Positions 6,847-22,572 of a DNA stretch of 39,748 nucleotides are shown piece after piece. The DNA is from a virus. Every line of letters starts with the position of its first letter. Within the stretch, counting starts at the first letter, position 1. Location of the stretch: positions 1-39,748 of IMG/VR virus record IMGVR_UViG_3300009009_000007; one strand, given 5' to 3'. The notes under the pieces were generated by a model. It was not told where the DNA came from. It worked only from the letters and a program-made list of their open reading frames with translations, and searched no databases. A program made the translations under genes and the position numbers.

Positions 6847-6964
6847 GTAATATTATCCCTATTAAACTTGCTATAACTAAGCGTATAGTAGACTTATCTC
6901 TTGTAATATATGCAAATTGAATATTAAGAGATATCATAGCTATGTATATAATTGTTAAAATCAT
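6836..6964 (-). CDS. 42-residue single-span membrane peptide
   Basis: The ATG (6964-6962) overlaps the TGA of large terminase (6963-6961) in an ATGA junction typical of translational coupling. The frame runs 42 codons (MILTIIYIAMISLNIQFAY...) and ends within the next gene, overlapping it by 11 bases. The N-terminal half is a hydrophobic segment; the middle is TRDKSTIRLV. Coupled overlaps at both ends support it being real. No function can be assigned. Confidence 0.5.
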   Translation of the reverse strand: MILTIIYIAMISLNIQFAYITRDKSTIRLVIASLIGIILRVI

Positions 6965-8325
6965 GCTAATGGGTCAAACTCCCAATCAACTTTTATATTG
7001 TTTAGTCTATAAAAATAATCATTCTCTATATCTTCTGACATAGCTTCTGTGCGTAAAGCGTCTGCACAATGAGAATTTTGATCGTGCACAGGCTCTTGAA
7101 TAAACACCATTCGCTTTTTGTCAAATCTTTTATGATATAAGTCTAGGTGCTTTAAGGCATCTCTGCAATTTTCCTTATCAAAATGATATCGAGAAAATCT
7201 TTTTTTAGTTGTATCTATCCCATGCTGTAAAGGAGATTTGTTCAGAGTAATGACCTCATCTGATAATCCATAATCTCTTAATGTCGATTCAAGAATTCTT
7301 GCAGTAGAGTTTCCTGTTTGTATAGATTTATTATCTGCATCATGTGGAACATAATGTGTTTTATACTCATATCCTTTATTTTTAAGTTCCTTAACAAATT
7401 CTGTTACGTCCCCTTTTTCCATTTCCCAGTAATCAATAAAAAATATGGCATTACCTGATTTTTGTCTAAACCAAATAGCGCAGCCGTCACGGCCTAGGTC
7501 CCAAAAAGTATCTACTGGTTTAGAGTCATCATATGGAAAATTTCCAACCCGGCCTGAATTTCTAGCTTTTTCAATATGATCTAAATAAATAGATCCTTTC
7601 ATTCCAGAATTAAAAGAACATCCATATTCTCTTTCTACATCTTCATCAGATAAACCTTCTTCTTCTTGTATTTGTTTCATCTGATCTATATTTATTAGTC
7701 CAGAATAACCTTCTTCTGTAGGCCAATATGTTTGTAGTAGTGATACAAACCAATTATGAGACGTGTATACGTTATCCCACATATCAGAAAAATGATTTCT
7801 TCCGTTAGGGGTACTATTAAATATCGCCCAACCATTAGATTCTCTAATAGCGGGCATCATTATTTTATAAGATTCAGGATCTGAAAAGGCGAATTCTGAA
7901 AATACTACACCTTTACAGGCTACTCCTCTAATAGAATCAGGATCTTTATCATATCCTAATACCCTAATAGTAGACCCTGTCATTGTTTCTATAAGCATCT
8001 CTTGATTACTAAGCCTAGAAATAAATTCTTTTGGCATATGATTAATTAATTTAAATCCATCTTTATCTATATTTTCCCATAGGGCTTGACGACTCATGGT
8101 TTTTGTAGGAAAAATATAAAAATAATTACCTGGATTTTGGGCTGCTTCTTTTAATAAATAACACCAACAACATTTATCTTTCCCTGCGCGTCTATGCCAG
8201 CGTAATATTGCTCTACGTTTACGAGTTTCAGGCTTTCCTTGTTGACCATCTAATGCTTTAAACAACTCCAATTGATAACTGCGAGGAGTGAAATTATAGG
8301 GTATTTGAATATTCGTTTTAGCCAT
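6961..8325 (-). CDS. terL: Terminase large subunit
   Basis: A 454-residue DNA-packaging motor with ATPase then nuclease domains. The Walker A-type RRAGKD is at 45-50. A Walker B-like GVVFSEFAFSD lies near 138-148, followed by the coupling motif NSTPNG (about 170). The RNase H-like nuclease domain shows DTFWDLGRDG (near 268), YVPHDADNKS (near 326) and HCADALR near the C-terminus, supplying the metal-binding acids. It would package DNA through the portal encoded downstream. It overlaps the zinc-ribbon gene upstream by 8 bases. The small subunit is 3 kb upstream, separated by cargo genes. Confidence 0.95.
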   Translation of the reverse strand: MAKTNIQIPYNFTPRSYQLELFKALDGQQGKPETRKRRAILRWHRRAGKDKCCWCYLLKEAAQNPGNYFYIFPTKTMSRQALWENIDKDGFKLINHMPKEFISRLSNQEMLIETMTGSTIRVLGYDKDPDSIRGVACKGVVFSEFAFSDPESYKIMMPAIRESNGWAIFNSTPNGRNHFSDMWDNVYTSHNWFVSLLQTYWPTEEGYSGLINIDQMKQIQEEEGLSDEDVEREYGCSFNSGMKGSIYLDHIEKARNSGRVGNFPYDDSKPVDTFWDLGRDGCAIWFRQKSGNAIFFIDYWEMEKGDVTEFVKELKNKGYEYKTHYVPHDADNKSIQTGNSTARILESTLRDYGLSDEVITLNKSPLQHGIDTTKKRFSRYHFDKENCRDALKHLDLYHKRFDKKRMVFIQEPVHDQNSHCADALRTEAMSEDIENDYFYRLNNIKVDWEFDPLA

Positions 8326-8605
8326 TAATTAATTCTGGATCTTTACTTGTAGATGTTACTCTATAAGAACCATCAATGTTCCTATCCACTATATTTATAG
8401 GTAGTATTGATTGTCTTTTATTTCCAGTTTTAAAAGAACTCGGATTTACTGCATCTTTTCTATTTTTAAATTTAAAGTGAGACGCCGAAATTATTTTAAT
8501 TAATCTGGCATAACATTTTTTACAAAAAGGAGAATCCTCCTTTATGTTTAGATAATACTCTTCTGTAGTCTTGCAATGCGGGCAATGAAAATCATATATT
8601 GGCAT
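8318..8605 (-). CDS. FmdB-type zinc-ribbon protein
   Basis: A 95-residue protein opening with MPIYDFHCPHC and a second CKKC about 20 residues later, the spacing of FmdB-family zinc ribbons. The rest is basic and unstructured-looking (KFKNRKDAV, SFKTGNKRQS). Such proteins occur in many phages directly upstream of terL; a DNA- or packaging-related role is plausible but undefined. Translation is coupled to terL by an 8-base overlap. A GGAAGG ribosome-binding site precedes the ATG, and the promoter at 8636-8663 lies just upstream. Confidence 0.75.
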   Translation of the reverse strand: MPIYDFHCPHCKTTEEYYLNIKEDSPFCKKCYARLIKIISASHFKFKNRKDAVNPSSFKTGNKRQSILPINIVDRNIDGSYRVTSTSKDPELING

Positions 8606-9731: not shown

Positions 9732-10010
9732 ATGGTATATCAAAAAATTATTGAAGTTCTTTTTAGTTTTGGATTAACCATAAATGCTACCTTATTTATC
9801 CCACAAGCTATCAGATTATTTAAAACGAAAAACACTGAAGGTTTATCAATATTAACTTTTTTCGGTTTTAATTGCATACAAATTTTAGGAAGTTTATATT
9901 GTTATTTTAATAACGACTATTTACCAATGCTCGGATGGGTCGTCAGTTTATGTACTTGTGGATGTATAACGTTATTAATTATATTTTACAGGTATAACAC
10001 ATCTACTTAA
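9732..10010 (+). CDS. SemiSWEET-type PQ-loop sugar transporter
   Basis: A 92-residue, three-span membrane protein from ATG 9732 (a GTG at 9675 in the same frame would add 19 poorly conserved residues). It has the PQ-loop signature INATLFIPQAIRLFKTKNTEGLS, followed by TFFGFNCIQILGSLYCYF, then a third span (VSLCTCGCITLLIIFY). Bacterial SemiSWEETs are 85-100 residues and work as dimers to pass small sugars across the inner membrane. The gene faces away from terL and ends one base before the tRNA-like gene's discriminator base. It is cargo, probably of host origin; phage carriage is unusual. Confidence 0.8.
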   Translation: MVYQKIIEVLFSFGLTINATLFIPQAIRLFKTKNTEGLSILTFFGFNCIQILGSLYCYFNNDYLPMLGWVVSLCTCGCITLLIIFYRYNTST

Positions 10011-10011
10011 T

Positions 10012-10103
10012 CGGAGAGGCTAGGATTCGAACCTAGGAAGAGAAATTCATCTCTTAACAGTCTTCTTCATCACTGTCGCTTTAAACCACTCAGCCACCTC
10101 TCC
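10012..10103 (-). tRNA. tRNA-Ser-like gene with 10-nt anticodon loop
   Basis: A 92-nt type II tRNA. The 7-bp acceptor stem GGAGAGG/CCTCTCC is perfect; D stem GCT/AGC; anticodon stem ACAGT/ACTGT; long variable arm AAGAGA/TCTCTT; T arm CTAGG-TTCGAAT-CCTAG; discriminator G; no encoded CCA. Serine identity is supported by the long variable arm, G1-C72, G2-C71, A3-T70, C11-G24 and G73. The anticodon loop (10071-10062) is GATGAAGAAG, ten bases rather than seven, so the anticodon is ambiguous (TGA would be Ser, GAA would be Phe). It may be unable to decode. It is co-oriented with the cyclodipeptide synthase gene upstream. Confidence 0.85.
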
Positions 10104-10150
10104 ATTGGACTTAAATCTTAATATGGTTAATATTGTATATGCAAATAACT

Positions 10151-10411
10151 TTATTTAAATATTTTGAATGATATACCAAAACCTTTTGGGGATATAAATA
10201 AATTAAAAGAACTATTCTTTGTTTTTATCTCTTTTAATGAAACCCCTAAAGGAAAATTTGAACTATAAATCAGTCTATTAGATCTACATTGATTAAAATT
10301 ATGAATATTCTTAATCCTTTTATATTCAAAGTTATTAGCATAAACATTAGAAGATAGAAAAAAAGATGAACAACATAATAAAACAATAAATTTAACCTTA
10401 ATTAACTGCAT
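10151..10411 (-). CDS. Short secreted protein with Sec signal peptide
   Basis: ATG 10411 follows an AGGAG site at 9 bases; a TTG three codons earlier is less likely. The 86-residue product starts with a classical signal peptide (MQLIKVKFIVLLCCSSFFLSSNVYA) with VYA as a probable cleavage site. The mature part is basic and polar, with one Cys, and ends in an alternating hydrophobic strand (GFGISFKIFK) that might insert in or associate with the outer membrane. It lies between the PAS gene and the tRNA-like gene on the same strand. No family recognised; exported cargo is the safest description. Confidence 0.6.
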   Translation of the reverse strand: MQLIKVKFIVLLCCSSFFLSSNVYANNFEYKRIKNIHNFNQCRSNRLIYSSNFPLGVSLKEIKTKNSSFNLFISPKGFGISFKIFK

Positions 10412-10482
10412 TCGTTTCAACTCCTACGAAAATAATTAGTAGTTGGCAGTTTAACTTATTAATACCTTTATGTCAATGTTTT

Positions 10483-10875
10483 TTATATATTATGAATATT
10501 TGTTATATCAGTAGATATTCCCATAATTCCAATAACAACCCCTTCTTTATTAATTAAAGGAACTTTATGCGATAAATATATAATTTCTCTACCATCAGAT
10601 AAAGTATTAACTTCTGTTCTAACTATAGGAATCTTTGTCTCCATAACCTCCTTATCAGTCTTACTAATTTCATCAGCATTATCTTTCCAAGGCATATCAT
10701 AATCACTCTTACCTAACATATCCTTACTATCTTGAAATCCAGCAGAAATAGCTTGTGCTTTATTGCAAGCTACAAATAAACCATAAATATCTTTCCAATA
10801 TATATGCCCAGGAAATATAGAAATCAACGTTTCTAATCCTGTTTGTAATTCATCATAAAGGCTAACTTCCAACAT
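10483..10875 (-). CDS. Stand-alone PAS-domain sensor protein
   Basis: A 130-residue protein made almost entirely of one PAS domain: IFPGHIYWKDIYGLFVACN, then GFQDSKDMLGKSDYDMPWKD, and the final strand GVVIGIMGISTDIT. The start at 10875 is chosen because AAGGAT precedes it and the upstream stop is two bases away (TAAAATG), so it is coupled to the cyclodipeptide synthase gene. In known proteins this PAS type is an input module of histidine kinases or LuxR regulators; here no output domain follows. It may sense a small ligand, perhaps the cyclodipeptide, but that is inference. Confidence 0.8.
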   Translation of the reverse strand: MLEVSLYDELQTGLETLISIFPGHIYWKDIYGLFVACNKAQAISAGFQDSKDMLGKSDYDMPWKDNADEISKTDKEVMETKIPIVRTEVNTLSDGREIIYLSHKVPLINKEGVVIGIMGISTDITNIHNI

Positions 10876-10876
10876 T

Positions 10877-11578
10877 TTACTTATCCTTATTATTTCTTCT
10901 AAATTTAACATGTAACCAAAACAACATATCATTGTTTACCAACTTACTATACGTATAATTCATAATATCTATTATTTTCCCCGGATATAATATGAAATCA
11001 TAATTACATTTTTGCCATACTCCCATAATCACAGCACATTCTTCTAATAAATATTCCAAACAAATATTATATGCTCTATCTAAACCTGTTATTTCAGTTT
11101 TTTCTTTATTTCTTCTTAAAAACTCATTAATTGTTATATCCATATTCTTTTTAAATTCTAAATCCTTTTCCCACATACTATTTATTTTTGCTCTATATTG
11201 AATATAATCTTTATCTTCTAACCAAGGGTCCCAATAATATAACGTATAAGGAATACTTAAAGACTCTATAAATTTATAATTTCTTTCTACCCACTCTTGT
11301 CCAGCCTTTATTGATCTATTATAAGCCTCTTCTATAGATAAATTACCACACTCCTCTAACATAATCGTATGTCTTTGTAAGCTATCATTAACCATAATAT
11401 TGCATTTTTTAAAGTTCTTATCTATAAAATTCATCATGGCCCATGACTTTTCTCCTTCATGATAAAATTTTCCAATACTAATTAATAAAGCTGCTTCTGA
11501 ATATTTAAATTTCTCCTTTTTTTCTTCAGGACATTTTAATAAAAAACATTTGAGGCTTTTACTATTATTTATATACAT
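10877..11578 (-). CDS. tRNA-dependent cyclodipeptide synthase (XYP type)
   Basis: A 233-residue Rossmann-like enzyme of the CDPS family, which takes two aminoacyl-tRNAs and forms a diketopiperazine. The nucleophile Ser is S34 in AALLISIGKFYHEGEK (AlbC S37). VNDSLQRHTIM follows, as in family members. Then comes EWVERN, and a C-terminal catalytic helix with Y176 and E180 (EYLLEE; AlbC Y178/E182). Y198-P199 in FILYPGKI marks the XYP subfamily. Length is typical (220-250). It has its own candidate promoter and is coupled to a PAS gene; a tRNA-Ser-like gene lies downstream on the same strand. Substrates cannot be read from the sequence. Confidence 0.85.
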   Translation of the reverse strand: MYINNSKSLKCFLLKCPEEKKEKFKYSEAALLISIGKFYHEGEKSWAMMNFIDKNFKKCNIMVNDSLQRHTIMLEECGNLSIEEAYNRSIKAGQEWVERNYKFIESLSIPYTLYYWDPWLEDKDYIQYRAKINSMWEKDLEFKKNMDITINEFLRRNKEKTEITGLDRAYNICLEYLLEECAVIMGVWQKCNYDFILYPGKIIDIMNYTYSKLVNNDMLFWLHVKFRRNNKDK

Positions 11579-11659: not shown

Positions 11660-12175
11660 TTAATCTTCGGGAAGTGTAACTAACTTTGATTTGGCTTCTA
11701 TAGGCACAGTAACAGTTGTTGATGGACTGTCTGCATAATAATTAATAACAGCAATCTTTGTTCCTTCTATTCCAGAAACTTCTAGTTTATCCATTCGTTG
11801 AAACTTTTTAGATAAAATAGGAGCCATCTTTCCTAAAAGAAATTTCTTAGTATCTATATTTCTTTTTAAAGTAGCCTCCCCTTCTCTCCAATCTATGTCT
11901 GGATATAAAATAGATGCCGGTAATGTTCCTATTTTATGTAACTCATCCATTCTTCTCATTAAAAGTACCGTATAAGCTTCATTAAGCTCTGCTTCAAATT
12001 CTTTATCTTTTAAAGGGGCTTTATAAATAGTATCTGCTACAGGAACTTTATCTGGAAAAGCCTCCGACAAAGTCAATATATCCATTCCTCCATGCATCTT
12101 TTCTAAAATAAAATCTTTTACTTCTCTGGTTAATCTTACTGCTTTTCTTTTACGAGATTTAGATTTTTTTATCAT
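11660..12175 (-). CDS. Terminase small subunit-like protein
   Basis: A 171-residue protein with a basic N-terminus (KKSKSRKRKAVRLT), a helix-turn-helix-like region (ILTLSEAFPDKVPVADTIYKAPLKDKEF, about 33-60) and a central helical domain with RRMDELHKIG. The segment TLKRNIDTKKFLLGKMAPILSKKF matches the common small-terminase phrase of R..DT.KW...K. It would bind the packaging site and recruit TerL. It is the first late gene after the divergent control region. In most related phages it sits beside terL; here five cargo genes, including the tRNA-like gene, and two tiny membrane ORFs intervene. Confidence 0.7.
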   Translation of the reverse strand: MIKKSKSRKRKAVRLTREVKDFILEKMHGGMDILTLSEAFPDKVPVADTIYKAPLKDKEFEAELNEAYTVLLMRRMDELHKIGTLPASILYPDIDWREGEATLKRNIDTKKFLLGKMAPILSKKFQRMDKLEVSGIEGTKIAVINYYADSPSTTVTVPIEAKSKLVTLPED

Positions 12176-15422: not shown

Positions 15423-16127
15423 ATGACTCTTATAATGATGTATAAAAAAGATAAATCAAGTCTTCCTGTAATAGCTGGAGATAGAGCTGTAACTAGAACT
15501 TTACCTTTACCTCTTTTTATAAAAAATAAATTAATGTCTTCTAGTAAATATAAGAGAACTTATTATTATCGTACAGATTCCCCAAAAATTAGTTTAAAAG
15601 AAAATATATTAATTGGTGGTGCGGGAGATGGTCCTCTTGTTAGATTTATAGTAAATGAAGATAGAATTAAATTTCCTAAGCCTTATTTAAAAGATGGTTC
15701 TTATAATCAATATGTTTCTTTCGTTTTTATAAATGCCATCTTAGACAAGATTGAAGAAGATAAAAACTTTAGACTTAAGTTAGATATAAATCAACTTGAT
15801 GCCAGCTTTCTTTTTAGTATTGGAACTCAAATTTATTGGTTACATTTAGAATATCCAATACATACTTTGAGCCTAAAAAAATTTAAAAGAAAGGATATAA
15901 ATATATTATATGAAAATAAAAGTTGCATACTTGTTGAATATATTGATGAACAAGGTTTTTATTCTATAGGATCTTCTAAAGCTGTAGATGAATCTATAAA
16001 ACATATAAATTCTTTAATAGTACCTTTACGTCATATGTCTGCGGAACAATTATTTGTGGGTGCTTATGAAAATGCTACTAGAGTAACCAAGCATGTTGGA
16101 TTTGGCTTAGATATTATGCAAGCTTAA
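15423..16127 (+). CDS. Proteasome-like Ntn hydrolase, paralogue 1
   Basis: A 234-residue protein with the fold signature of proteasome beta/HslV-like Ntn hydrolases. Thr2 would become the N-terminal nucleophile after Met removal; VIAGDRAVT carries the Asp at residue 20 (proteasome D17); SPKISLKENILIGGAGDG supplies the Lys region and the conserved Gly-rich turn. It is 45-residue-for-45-residue similar in order to the next gene (FPKPYLKDGSYNQYVS in both). It has its own repeated promoter and a GGGAG site. Such phage Ntn proteins are known but their substrates are not. It may self-assemble with its paralogue. Confidence 0.75.
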   Translation: MTLIMMYKKDKSSLPVIAGDRAVTRTLPLPLFIKNKLMSSSKYKRTYYYRTDSPKISLKENILIGGAGDGPLVRFIVNEDRIKFPKPYLKDGSYNQYVSFVFINAILDKIEEDKNFRLKLDINQLDASFLFSIGTQIYWLHLEYPIHTLSLKKFKRKDINILYENKSCILVEYIDEQGFYSIGSSKAVDESIKHINSLIVPLRHMSAEQLFVGAYENATRVTKHVGFGLDIMQA

Positions 16128-16201: not shown

Positions 16202-16876
16202 ATGACTTGTGTAATTGCATATAAAGATAAATCTAACCATGTTTGGATGGCTTCAGATAGATGTGTGCGTTTTACCTCATCTAAAGATGAAACAAGAGAT
16301 GAGTCTCTTAGAGAGAGTAAATGCATATTAAATAATGGAGTATTATTAGGTGGGGCAGGAAATGCTCTTATATGTGATCTTATTAAACATCTATATTTCC
16401 CTAAACCTTATTTAAAAAATGGGTCGTATAACCATTATGTTTCTAATAGTTTGATGAGAATCATAATAACTAATGTAGAGAAATGGATACAATATTCTAG
16501 ATATAATCATGCTTATGATTATGTATATTTTATATTAGCTATCAAGTCTCAACTATATTATTGTCTTATAAATTATAATAGAGATTACTGTATAAAAAAT
16601 ATATTAAAAAATCAGAAAAAAGAGGACTCAAAACTTATATATTTAAGCAAACATTGTAAAGTTTCAGCACATCTTAAAGATGGAAATTTCGCTATCGTTG
16701 GTAATATTGATTCTATTACTATCCTTGATATTTTAAAAAAGCATCCTTTATATAGAGCAACTAATGATATTGACGTAGAGCAATTTTTAATTAGCATACT
16801 CAAAGATGTGGCAGAAGTGGCAGACGGCTGTAATAGTGATATAGATGTTATAAATAATGATACTTTTTCTTGGTAG
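16202..16876 (+). CDS. Proteasome-like Ntn hydrolase, paralogue 2
   Basis: A 224-residue paralogue of the upstream protein. Mature Thr1 (MTCVIAYKDKS), WMASDRC with Asp18 in mature numbering, a Lys in RESKCILNNG, and the LLGGAGNALICDL turn give a complete Thr/Asp/Lys set. FPKPYLKNGSYNHYVS aligns with the same segment in paralogue 1. The second half has diverged strongly and is Lys/Ile-rich. Two different but co-regulated subunits recall hetero-oligomeric proteasome rings. Targets may be host or competing-phage proteins; unproven. Confidence 0.72.
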   Translation: MTCVIAYKDKSNHVWMASDRCVRFTSSKDETRDESLRESKCILNNGVLLGGAGNALICDLIKHLYFPKPYLKNGSYNHYVSNSLMRIIITNVEKWIQYSRYNHAYDYVYFILAIKSQLYYCLINYNRDYCIKNILKNQKKEDSKLIYLSKHCKVSAHLKDGNFAIVGNIDSITILDILKKHPLYRATNDIDVEQFLISILKDVAEVADGCNSDIDVINNDTFSW

Positions 16877-18163: not shown

Positions 18164-18418
18164 ATGCTTAGACGCATAATCAGATTTATTAAATCTCCTT
18201 TTGTTAGAAATTGTTTAACAGGGGATTTGATGTTAAATATAAGAGTTTCTTATATACATATAAATAATATTCAAGGATATGTAGCTAAAGATTTGGGGTG
18301 TGTAATTAATAGTTGTTATATCTTGGACTCTAAGAAGCTAGAAGATATATTTAATTCATATAAGATTACACATAAACCAAATGCTTTTATTTATAGATTT
18401 CGAAACATATTTAATTAA
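18164..18418 (+). CDS. Small protein upstream of DNA polymerase
   Basis: An 84-residue basic protein (MLRRIIRFIKSPFVRNC...) with an AAGG site before ATG 18164. Its 3' end overlaps the polymerase gene by 38 bases in another frame, so translation of the polymerase, which lacks its own good ribosome-binding site, may depend on it. The N-terminal helix is amphipathic and basic. No family recognised; it might also be a leader ORF only. Confidence 0.45.
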   Translation: MLRRIIRFIKSPFVRNCLTGDLMLNIRVSYIHINNIQGYVAKDLGCVINSCYILDSKKLEDIFNSYKITHKPNAFIYRFRNIFN

Positions 18419-19472
18419 TAGCGCCGGTCCTATACCAGAGCCTATATGCCTTTCTTATTACGATGGGAAAACAGATGGCATATTAAAAGGCCCTGATATA
18501 GAGAAGTTCTTATCGTATATATTTAATAATAAGCATACCCTTATGGGGGCACATAATGCGGCCTTTGAATTAAATGTCATAACAAAATATTATCCCAAAT
18601 TAAAATCTTGTTTATATAAAAAACTTAAACACAAACAAATTATATGTACAAAAATCTATGAACAATTGCTAGATTGTACTAGAAAAAAACCTATTGCTAG
18701 TTTCGGCCTTGCCTCATTAGTTCTGAAATATTTTAATATTGATATCTCCGAAAATAAAAAGAATAAGAACTCTTGGAGGTATAGATATCACGAGTTAGTA
18801 GATATTCCCTTATTAGATTGGCCCGAAGAAGCTATAAAATATTCGAAGGAAGATTCTATATGGGCTTATAAAATATATCTAAAGCAATTAGAAGAAAAGA
18901 AAATAGATACTAGCATATCGGTTGCCGCTGATTATTATTTAAATAGAATGGGATTAACAGGTATTAATATAGACCAAGGTAGGATAGTGCAAATAGAGGA
19001 GGAATTAAAAGAAAAGATTAAAGATTATGTTAAGCAGCTAGAGGAAGCTTCTATTCTTATTCATGATAAGAAGGGCAGAAAAAGAAATATGAAATATTTT
19101 AAGGAAGTTATAAAAGAAAAGCTGCCTAACGCAAGGCATACCTCTAAAGGATCGGTGTCTACTTCGCATGAAGATATGATATATTATTTAACTTTAGTTC
19201 CTGAAGACGATCCCTTTCATAATATACTTACTTCCTTTATTGAAGTAATGAAAGCGGAGAAAATCTTAACTGCTTTTGTATCTAGATTAAAGAAAGCAGA
19301 TCCATATATCCGCACTCAATATAAAGCAGTAGTTAATTCTGATAGAACATCTAGTTTTACTTCAGAAAATTTCCCTTCAGTGAATATACAACAGATGCCA
19401 AGGGAGATTAAAGGTCTCACCTGGGATGTAAGAAACTGTTTTATTCCAAGAAAAGGAACAGATATTTTATGA
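18381..19472 (+). CDS. Split family A DNA polymerase, exonuclease/thumb subunit
   Basis: A 363-residue N-terminal half of a PolA-type polymerase. The 3'-5' exonuclease has all motifs: Exo I LLFIDFETY (D6, E8), Exo II LMGAHNAAFEL, Exo III YSKEDSIW (Y and D). The thumb region follows (LEEKKIDTSISVAADYYLNRMGLTGI...), then the start of the palm (NSDRTSSFTSENFPSVNIQQMPRE, corresponding to TGRLSS...LQNIP). The frame stops at DIL-TGA just before motif A. The palm/fingers half starts in the overlapping ATGA. Both halves are open and conserved, so the split looks functional rather than degenerate. Confidence 0.88.
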   Translation: MLLFIDFETYLINSAGPIPEPICLSYYDGKTDGILKGPDIEKFLSYIFNNKHTLMGAHNAAFELNVITKYYPKLKSCLYKKLKHKQIICTKIYEQLLDCTRKKPIASFGLASLVLKYFNIDISENKKNKNSWRYRYHELVDIPLLDWPEEAIKYSKEDSIWAYKIYLKQLEEKKIDTSISVAADYYLNRMGLTGINIDQGRIVQIEEELKEKIKDYVKQLEEASILIHDKKGRKRNMKYFKEVIKEKLPNARHTSKGSVSTSHEDMIYYLTLVPEDDPFHNILTSFIEVMKAEKILTAFVSRLKKADPYIRTQYKAVVNSDRTSSFTSENFPSVNIQQMPREIKGLTWDVRNCFIPRKGTDIL

Positions 19473-20449
19473 CAAATTATAAACTATGTAGCATAGATTA
19501 TTCTGGATTGGAGTTAGCAAGCGCAGCCTCTCAATTATATAAAATAACTGGGCAACGAGATATGTTAGATATACTTAATCAAGGAGATGAGCCAGTTGAT
19601 ATGCACAGCATGTTAGCATATAGATTTATGAACATGAAAGAAAAAACAAATGAAACATATGAATCTTTTGTTCGGCATAAGAAAGAACCTCTGTATAAAA
19701 AATATAGACAACTTGCAAAGCCTATAAACTTAGGCTTCCCAGGAGGAATTGGTTATGATACTATGAGAACTCTTCTTGCCAGGGATGGCATTTATCCCAA
19801 ATTAAAAGTTCTAAATTCTGCTAAATATGAAGAGCCATTACAGAGAAATACCTCAGTTTTAAGGAAGAAAGGATATCCCATAAGAGTAAGGCAAATAGCC
19901 CGGCATAATTTCGAATTAATATATGATGAATTAGTTGCTTTAAAAGACGAGCTATTTAATTTATATCCAGACCTAAAGAACTTTTTAAATGATGGTCATA
20001 AACAATTTCTAACTGGTGAATCCAAGCAAATGAAAAATGAGTTTGGAGAATGGGAGACAGAAGAAATGTACAGCTATCAGATAGAAGATTTTGAGAGGAG
20101 TTGGTGTACATATACCCAATTATGTAATGGCATATTAATGCAATCTCCTTCAGCAATAGGGGCTAAGCGTGCTGTTATAAAGGTTATGGAAGAGTTTGCA
20201 GATACAAATGTTATTATTCCTCAAGCTTTTATTCACGATGAGATTCTATTTGAAATTAAAGAATGTCCTCAGATGTATAGTTTAATACAAGATGTAGCAG
20301 AAATAATGCTTATAGAAATGAGCACTATATTAACTGAATCAAGGATAGCATGTGAAGCTGAGCTAATGGATCACTGGAAAAAAAGTGGAGGAGATTGGAG
20401 TTGTGTCTATTGGATGGAACCACATACAACAAAAATAAAATTTAAATGA
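19469..20449 (+). CDS. Split family A DNA polymerase, palm/fingers subunit
   Basis: A 326-residue C-terminal half. Motif A is LCSIDYSGLELASAASQL (catalytic D10). Motif B is R80-QLA-K84-PIN-L88-GFPGGIGY (E. coli R754, K758, F762 positions, with Leu at 762). Motif C is FIHDEILFEI (H256, D257, E258). Its ATG overlaps the upstream stop by ATGA, giving coupled synthesis at similar levels. It ends at a clean TAA. It must pair with the upstream product to give a complete primer-grip and proofreading polymerase. No helicase or primase is seen near it. Confidence 0.88.
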   Translation: MTNYKLCSIDYSGLELASAASQLYKITGQRDMLDILNQGDEPVDMHSMLAYRFMNMKEKTNETYESFVRHKKEPLYKKYRQLAKPINLGFPGGIGYDTMRTLLARDGIYPKLKVLNSAKYEEPLQRNTSVLRKKGYPIRVRQIARHNFELIYDELVALKDELFNLYPDLKNFLNDGHKQFLTGESKQMKNEFGEWETEEMYSYQIEDFERSWCTYTQLCNGILMQSPSAIGAKRAVIKVMEEFADTNVIIPQAFIHDEILFEIKECPQMYSLIQDVAEIMLIEMSTILTESRIACEAELMDHWKKSGGDWSCVYWMEPHTTKIKFK

Positions 20450-21759: not shown

Positions 21760-22572
21760 TTACCAGAATCTATAAACAAGTCCTATCGCAATATTATAGT
21801 CATCTCTTAATTTAATTTCGGTTTTTGTATCAGGTCTCTCATTTGACTTAGCTCTTAGAAGTCTTAAATTGCTCCAGCCTACTGATCCCCGAACACTTAA
21901 GTTTTCTGTAATATTACAATCTGTTCCAAGTTTAATTACAGGAATTAATTTTTTACTTTTAAATGTTCTTGATAATAAATCTACTGGAACATTCCAAACA
22001 GCAAGAGGAGGTCCTCCATCAATAACATATAATATATTCTGCGAAGCTCTGAGTTGTGAATAAGATGCACCAACCTGTCCCCATAAATTAACTTTAGATT
22101 TTGATTCAATCTCATTTAATCTTACTTTTAATAGTACTTGAAAATGCTCTGTTCGAGCGGAGGTCTGTATGAAAACAACATCGTTAGGATCTATAATAAT
22201 ATGTCCAGGCAAGGGTTCTCCCATAGTAACTTTATTTAATCTTTTTTTTGTGCGCTGGGTCTCATATCCTATTTCCATCCCAAGTCTATCATTAAAATTA
22301 GTGCCTATAAAAATCCCATACATATCAGGATGATTGTAATAAACGTTTTTCCCGTAGCCTTCTCTAAAGGAATATGTTCCATGTATGGTTGGAGAAATTA
22401 CGCTGGCATTAAAGACCATGTACAGGTTATTATTCCGATGTAATGTACATGTATCCCCACATAATGTTGTTGATTTGATGGTATATGCATTAGTATTTTG
22501 CGCTAAGAATATGTACATAGCGGCTAACAATGCCTGTGCCCCATTCTTATATTTTAATATAATATTTTTCAT
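21760..22572 (-). CDS. Outer-membrane beta-barrel protein (lysogenic conversion candidate)
   Basis: A 270-residue protein with a signal peptide (NIILKYKNGAQALLAAMYIF to NTNAYT). The mature part consists of amphipathic strands with aromatic ends (MYGIFIGTNFNDRLGMEIGYET, VNLWGQVGASYSQLRAS, LSVRGSVGWSNLRLL). It ends in YRFW, the terminal aromatic that the BAM complex recognises. Length fits an 8- to 10-stranded barrel. A GGAG site precedes the ATG; TTATTA-17-TATAAT on the minus strand upstream may be its promoter. It is transcribed opposite to the early genes, as moron genes expressed in lysogens often are. It might block superinfection or alter surface properties. Confidence 0.8.
   Translation of the reverse strand: MKNIILKYKNGAQALLAAMYIFLAQNTNAYTIKSTTLCGDTCTLHRNNNLYMVFNASVISPTIHGTYSFREGYGKNVYYNHPDMYGIFIGTNFNDRLGMEIGYETQRTKKRLNKVTMGEPLPGHIIIDPNDVVFIQTSARTEHFQVLLKVRLNEIESKSKVNLWGQVGASYSQLRASQNILYVIDGGPPLAVWNVPVDLLSRTFKSKKLIPVIKLGTDCNITENLSVRGSVGWSNLRLLRAKSNERPDTKTEIKLRDDYNIAIGLVYRFW

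Follow-up and report, generated by a model that had tools for sequence, protein, structure and literature searches.

In the arbitrium system of Bacillus phages the signal is a processed peptide. The locus described here resembles arbitrium in that a phage encodes both a signal maker and a candidate receptor (no homology is claimed); it differs in that aminoacyl-tRNA would be the source of its signal, a cyclodipeptide, and in that no regulatory output was identified. The candidate receptor is a PAS domain, and such domains bind many ligands, or none. For the signal maker, the closest described relatives are cyclodipeptide synthases (CDPSs) of the XYP subfamily from Fluoribacter dumoffii (5ocd) and Nocardia brasiliensis (Nbra-CDPS; 5mlq/9iam), with which it shares sequence, fold, catalytic residues and the Y-P motif; unlike these it is phage-borne and paired with a stand-alone PAS protein. 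VqmA, which is also carried by phage VP882, is the receptor for DPO, a pyrazinone autoinducer (PMC12802170, PMC8284805). VqmA, that of VP882 included, is nearest in the PDB to the phage PAS protein both by sequence and by fold and has the ligand Lys in common with it; each case presents a phage-borne sensor domain from a family binding a small N-heterocycle, whereas the phage studied here also carries a synthase. A third set consists of a CDPS gene and a PAS-histidine kinase gene (sometimes with a PQ-loop gene) in Legionellales, pairs for which we found no publication. Homologues and grouping are as in the phage, the differences being that the bacteria keep the kinase, often with a receiver domain, and have no tRNA there.

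The window, that is, the whole 39,748-nt stretch of viral DNA analysed, carries the following features in and around the locus:

6961 to 8605, minus strand: zinc-ribbon gene and terminase large subunit (TerL), one flank of the island, syntenic in relatives
9732 to 10010, plus strand: PQ-loop (SemiSWEET-like) membrane protein (Pfam PQ-loop, 6.6e-10)
10012 to 10103, minus strand: tRNA-Ser-like gene with a 10-nt anticodon loop (Rfam tRNA)
10151 to 10411, minus strand: small protein with a signal peptide-like N-terminus
10483 to 10875, minus strand: stand-alone PAS domain protein, 130 aa (Pfam PAS_4, VqmA matches)
10877 to 11578, minus strand: CDPS gene, XYP subfamily, 233 aa (phmmer against the PDB, alignment, model)
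11660 to 12175, minus strand: terminase small subunit (TerS), the opposite flank of the island (PHROG 1482, E 9e-7), syntenic in L002, L003 and L004

A sequence-only reading of this region had described a CDPS gene, a PAS gene, a gene for a secreted-type protein and a tRNA-Ser-like gene, all on the minus strand inside 1.6 kb, and all are present as claimed. To these the PQ-loop gene, absent from that reading, adds a fifth part. It lies on the plus strand, convergent with the tRNA gene and ending 1 nt from it; being on the opposite strand, it does not form one operon with the CDPS and PAS genes. The secreted-type ORF has no convincing family in Pfam, PHROG or NCBIfam and does not significantly resemble the small secreted ORF found at the equivalent site in a related phage.

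The interval between TerS and TerL differs among the closest phages by TerL (L002-L005, partial records), and the cassette is therefore regarded as accessory DNA; these phages have neither the CDPS nor the tRNA. The phage encodes a plasmid-type ParA and a TetR-type regulator, and no integrase was recognised among the phage genes examined. To judge from its genes, a ParA with no recognised integrase would be in keeping with a plasmid-like lysogen; VP882, too, carries on as a plasmid phage. The phage TerL had no match in 143 Legionellales genomes, and the major capsid protein gave a single weak match (30%) among 369 Gammaproteobacteria; the content of the module and the similarity of the tRNA to tRNA-Ser(UGA) only suggest a host among the Legionellales or their relatives. 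Elsewhere in the window, an outer-membrane beta-barrel (OMP_b-brl) gene at 21760-22572 is possible lysogenic conversion or receptor-masking cargo. The DNA polymerase is encoded in two ORFs with a 4-base overlap (18381-20449), where the related phage L004 has one ORF of 696 aa. Two adjacent, related-looking proteins (15423-16127 and 16202-16876) have no Pfam match; their N-terminal pattern may resemble that of proteasome/HslV-type Ntn hydrolases.

The best PDB sequence match of the CDPS is 5ocd (phmmer, E 5.3e-39), and its identity to the XYP relatives aligned is 31-36%. The catalytic Ser, the Tyr/Glu pair and the Y202-P203 motif that mark the XYP subfamily are all present, and S34, Y176, E180 and Y198-P199 of the phage protein are invariant in an alignment with 21 relatives. 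The model (pLDDT 88.5) has the CDPS Rossmann fold, again with the F. dumoffii enzyme (5ocd) as the best PDB match (TM 0.90, rmsd 1.3). The 5ocd match, the catalytic residues and the fold together confirm that the CDPS gene is real; by sequence and model, its product is an XYP-type CDPS, predicted to synthesize a cyclodipeptide. The protein scores under the curated cut-offs of Pfam PF16715 (18.8 bits, cut-off 27) and NCBIfam TIGR04539 (38.3, cut-off 45), a criterion that is practical and not biochemical, and automatic annotation could therefore miss the gene. Its P1 position is L32, two residues before the catalytic Ser. Since Leu at P1 goes with Ala in Nbra-CDPS (PMC5816076, PMC13062777), the first substrate is predicted, by homology only, to be Ala and not Ser.

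The PAS gene is best started from the ATG at 10875, which has an upstream AAGGA, lies 1 nt past the CDPS stop and gives a protein of 130 aa; translational coupling of the two genes is therefore probable. The protein matches Pfam PAS_4 (E 7.5e-13) and ends after the PAS domain, with neither a kinase nor an HTH domain and with 62 bp to the next gene. We considered a decayed kinase gene and rejected it, because there is no room for kinase remnants and the start is coupled to the CDPS. VqmA provides the only PDB sequence matches below E 0.01 (E 3e-7). When the model (pLDDT 90.9) was compared with known structures, VqmA chains filled the first six places in Foldseek and the first three in VIA-align, in the latter with a modest lead (Z of 17.2-17.1 against 15.6 for the next PAS structure). 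The DPO-critical residues of VqmA are F67, F99 and K101 (PMC10426928). K101 aligns with a Lys that is invariant in this PAS family, the phage protein included; in contrast to VqmA, the phage PAS has Ile in place of F67 and Ser in place of F99, and it is without the C-terminal HTH DNA-binding domain. With both Phe residues replaced, the phage PAS probably does not bind DPO itself, and the natural inference from these residues is a ligand related to DPO but different from it. The phage PAS sits on a long branch, and its position in the PAS tree comes out unresolved.

Bacterial counterparts were reached from three starting points. Using PAS similarity alone, homologues were collected from 143 Legionellales genomes (85 loci read, with 89 PAS-kinase genes). 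These homologues are histidine kinases, and a CDPS gene, of one of several sequence types, lies within 1 kb of 44 of the 89. The other neighbours are a family of about 430 aa, here called family X (23), an NRPS-like gene (10) and a PLP enzyme (1); thus 34 of the 89 adjoin another synthase-like gene and 11 adjoin none of these. A PQ-loop gene is found within 3 kb of 19 of the 89. If about three CDPS genes per genome are assumed, chance adjacency of a CDPS to a PAS kinase would be well under 1%, but the loci share descent, and because the Legionella species are related the 44 cannot be counted as independent. When Legionellales loci were instead found by their CDPS, nearly all had the PAS kinase adjacent, in co-directional, divergent or convergent order, and these differing arrangements give independent support for the pairing. 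Outside Legionellales-like genomes, none of about 60 loci had this PAS within 6 kb of the CDPS. The phage PAS belongs to this family and stands beside a CDPS as its bacterial relatives do, and has no HisKA/HATPase domains.

When 369 Gammaproteobacteria were searched with the PQ-loop protein alone, 14 genomes (1-2.6 Mb) had the gene, and a CDPS gene is beside it in 8 of the 17 loci read. The phage PQ-loop protein is up to 59% identical to the products of genes beside PAS-kinase or CDPS genes. The three parts occur as PQ-CDPS-PAS runs in L324 (overlapping genes, the PAS gene being cut by the contig end) and in L328 and L337 (PAS with kinase). Downstream of the CDPS, PQ-loop, PAS and kinase are fused in one protein in L332, L334 and L336, and on a plasmid of Ca. 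Endohaliclona renieramycinifaciens a single protein with PQ-loop, two PAS and kinase domains comes after the CDPS. PQ-loop, CDPS and PAS, the same three that the phage has, thus recur together whichever of them a search begins with. The earlier suggestion that the stand-alone PAS senses a CDPS-type product is probably correct, given the adjacency to CDPS genes across Legionellales and VqmA as the nearest structure.

The same data bear on two other explanations. In one, the CDPS would deplete charged tRNAs or serve in host takeover, and the PAS would regulate it. It is established that CDPSs consume aminoacyl-tRNAs, and the translational coupling of the PAS to the CDPS would suit such a regulator; but CDPS and PAS are stably kept as pairs in many bacteria, and E. 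coli is used to express known CDPSs when their products are analysed (PMC5816076), so we regard this role as quite improbable. The other takes the cassette to be secondary-metabolite cargo acting by lysogenic conversion, with a bioactive diketopiperazine made for the host and a PAS that is incidental or a redox sensor. Such cargo seems unlikely to us, even if CDPS genes are known mostly from secondary metabolism (PMC5816076) and the outer-membrane beta-barrel gene elsewhere in the phage is also cargo-like: there is no tailoring enzyme next to the CDPS, this PAS family is specifically paired with synthases, and a pyrazinone receptor is closer to it in fold than flavin or haem PAS domains are.

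Other loci with the same PAS-kinase family also deserve mention. Family X (L116:2672-4054 and 20 relatives) stands beside PQ-loop and PAS-kinase genes where other loci have a CDPS or an NRPS-like gene. Its 21 members have no convincing match in Pfam, NCBIfam or the PDB and no similarity to CDPSs; the family is a candidate for a new small-molecule synthase. NRPS-like genes are paired with the same PAS kinases in four Legionellales loci (L103:1705-4641, L105, L166 and L171), that of L103 having adenylation and methyltransferase domains. Five loci (L113, L120, L121, L135 and L136), in apparent synteny with CDPS and PAS-kinase loci, keep the kinase and are missing the CDPS beside it; they are possible receivers without a synthase of their own at that place.

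Among viral sequences, no relative came from pattern scans of viral contigs, whether the query was the single CDPS or a CDPS alignment. Scanning with the PAS alignment found three records (L306-L308), all of them CDPS-bearing, and the empty CDPS scans therefore mark a limit of the pattern method. In each, the order is an MFS transporter gene, the CDPS and, directly after it, a PAS-histidine kinase (L306:3808-7503, L307:1-3195 and L308:3853-7479); response-regulator genes are near in L306. The records are fragmentary, but with a tail-fibre gene in L308 and a TerL-like fragment in L307 they are plausibly prophages; none is closely related to the window phage. A tblastn search of 50,697 phage records with the CDPS, PAS and PQ-loop proteins returned no match, and neither the viral contig scans nor the phage records yielded the kinase-less form in another phage. 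In the open-access literature, outside which most subscription papers lie, we found no paper joining CDPSs with phages in this sense, nor anything joining PQ-loop proteins with PAS histidine kinases or CDPSs with Legionella histidine kinases. Novelty is thus likely, if not certain.

The tRNA-Ser-like gene scores 46.9 bits (E 4e-7) with the Rfam tRNA model. Its predicted fold is a cloverleaf with a long variable arm of 6 bp (z -3.2); G73 is present and CCA is not encoded. Cloverleaf, long variable arm and G73 are as in a tRNA-Ser, and the 7-nt anticodon loop with a Ser anticodon is not: the anticodon stem ACAGT/ACTGT closes a loop of 10 nt, GATGAAGAAG, for which ARAGORN finds nothing better than a forced 4-nt anticodon with a G.G pair. 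Intact arms around a 10-nt loop, as originally described, are thus borne out by both Rfam and the fold. In Legionellales its best matches are mostly tRNA-Ser(UGA) genes, with 26 of the first 27 bases and the whole acceptor stem identical; three pairs in the anticodon and T-arm stems are changed on both sides with pairing kept, and none is broken. It follows that the fold is maintained and that only the loop is abnormal. The gene is, as far as its sequence tells, a structurally maintained tRNA-Ser(UGA)-like gene. The option of an attachment-site remnant was rejected because all arms are present. For comparison, we looked through about 120 tRNA-Ser matches in viral contigs that share its acceptor/D-arm motif: the loop is 7 nt in every complete one, and apparent loops of 8-9 nt were truncated tRNA halves. 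The exact anticodon arm of the phage tRNA occurs in no viral contig scanned.

The sequence-only reading had gone further and proposed a dedicated, non-decoding tRNA-Ser, charged by SerRS, that feeds the CDPS for the synthesis of seryl-diketopiperazines. The two genes are near each other on the same strand, the arms are intact (three compensated changes, no broken pairs) and the 10-nt loop is unlike that of any complete comparison tRNA. Acceptor-arm microhelices moreover suffice as substrates of Nbra-CDPS, an XYP enzyme that requires the acceptor arm only (2026 work; PMC13062777), so that a chargeable tRNA-Ser is possible as a CDPS substrate in principle. The distribution of the tRNA does not support the proposal. 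In a set of 81 CDPS loci (80 bacterial and one plasmid), ARAGORN called tRNAs within about 6 kb of four; the sole tRNA-Ser call (L060) looks spurious, its sequence not being tRNA-like. The 85 PAS-kinase loci hold 1 tRNA in all, and the three other viral CDPS records (L306-L308), unrelated to this phage, hold 0. Related phages are without both CDPS and tRNA. A CDPS without the tRNA, together with the tRNA bearing a normal loop in related phages, had been named beforehand as refuting the proposal; the first half of this is what was found elsewhere, while for the second half no related phage has the tRNA. In addition, L32 in the P1 pocket predicts Ala (PMC5816076), and a promoter shared by the tRNA and the CDPS was not shown; that the tRNA is dedicated to the CDPS now appears highly improbable.

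It is rather probable that the tRNA is unrelated to the CDPS, being a loop-changed phage tRNA that may act in frameshifting or suppression, may be bait for a host anticodon nuclease or may be decaying. tRNA genes are common in phages, ARAGORN assigns a 4-nt anticodon, the loop may also be read as a UGA anticodon plus 3 nt, and the tRNA does not co-occur with CDPSs; the maintained stems, however, speak against simple decay. Such a tRNA is compatible with a signalling role of the neighbouring genes.

For these genes, we give slightly better than even chances to a captured cyclodipeptide signal module that comprises a synthase, a PQ-loop protein and a receptor domain but lacks the kinase. Starting from the homology, adjacency, folds, gene spacing and absence of a kinase described above, we infer product, binding, transport and effect as follows: (i) the CDPS would take two host aminoacyl-tRNAs to make a cyclodipeptide, probably containing Ala, (ii) the co-translated stand-alone PAS would bind this cyclodipeptide or a derivative and (iii) the PQ-loop protein may help the product to pass the membrane, or may anchor the receptor or serve in membrane sensing. 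Bacteria have the PAS, and some of them the PQ-loop domain too, as part of a histidine kinase; the phage would have kept synthase, PQ-loop protein and receptor domain and not the kinase. Most likely it would then work either as signal plus decoy, the phage PAS titrating the signal or pairing with host PAS kinases and so distorting host signalling, or as a circuit of the phage's own, in which the PAS does the sensing and a further phage partner takes part. The most elaborate form, a phage circuit with a cyclodipeptide made from aminoacyl-tRNA, a VqmA-like PAS, PQ-loop transport and a supply coming in part from a chargeable, non-decoding phage tRNA, strikes us as barely credible.

The papers searched gave no role for the Legionellales CDPSs. 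Should the pairing hold, dedicated PAS kinases across Legionellales would be reading cyclodipeptides and other small products derived from amino acids as signals, and phages would have taken over synthase and receptor domain. If true, this would add a new chemical class to phage-host communication, together with a testable ligand-receptor prediction.
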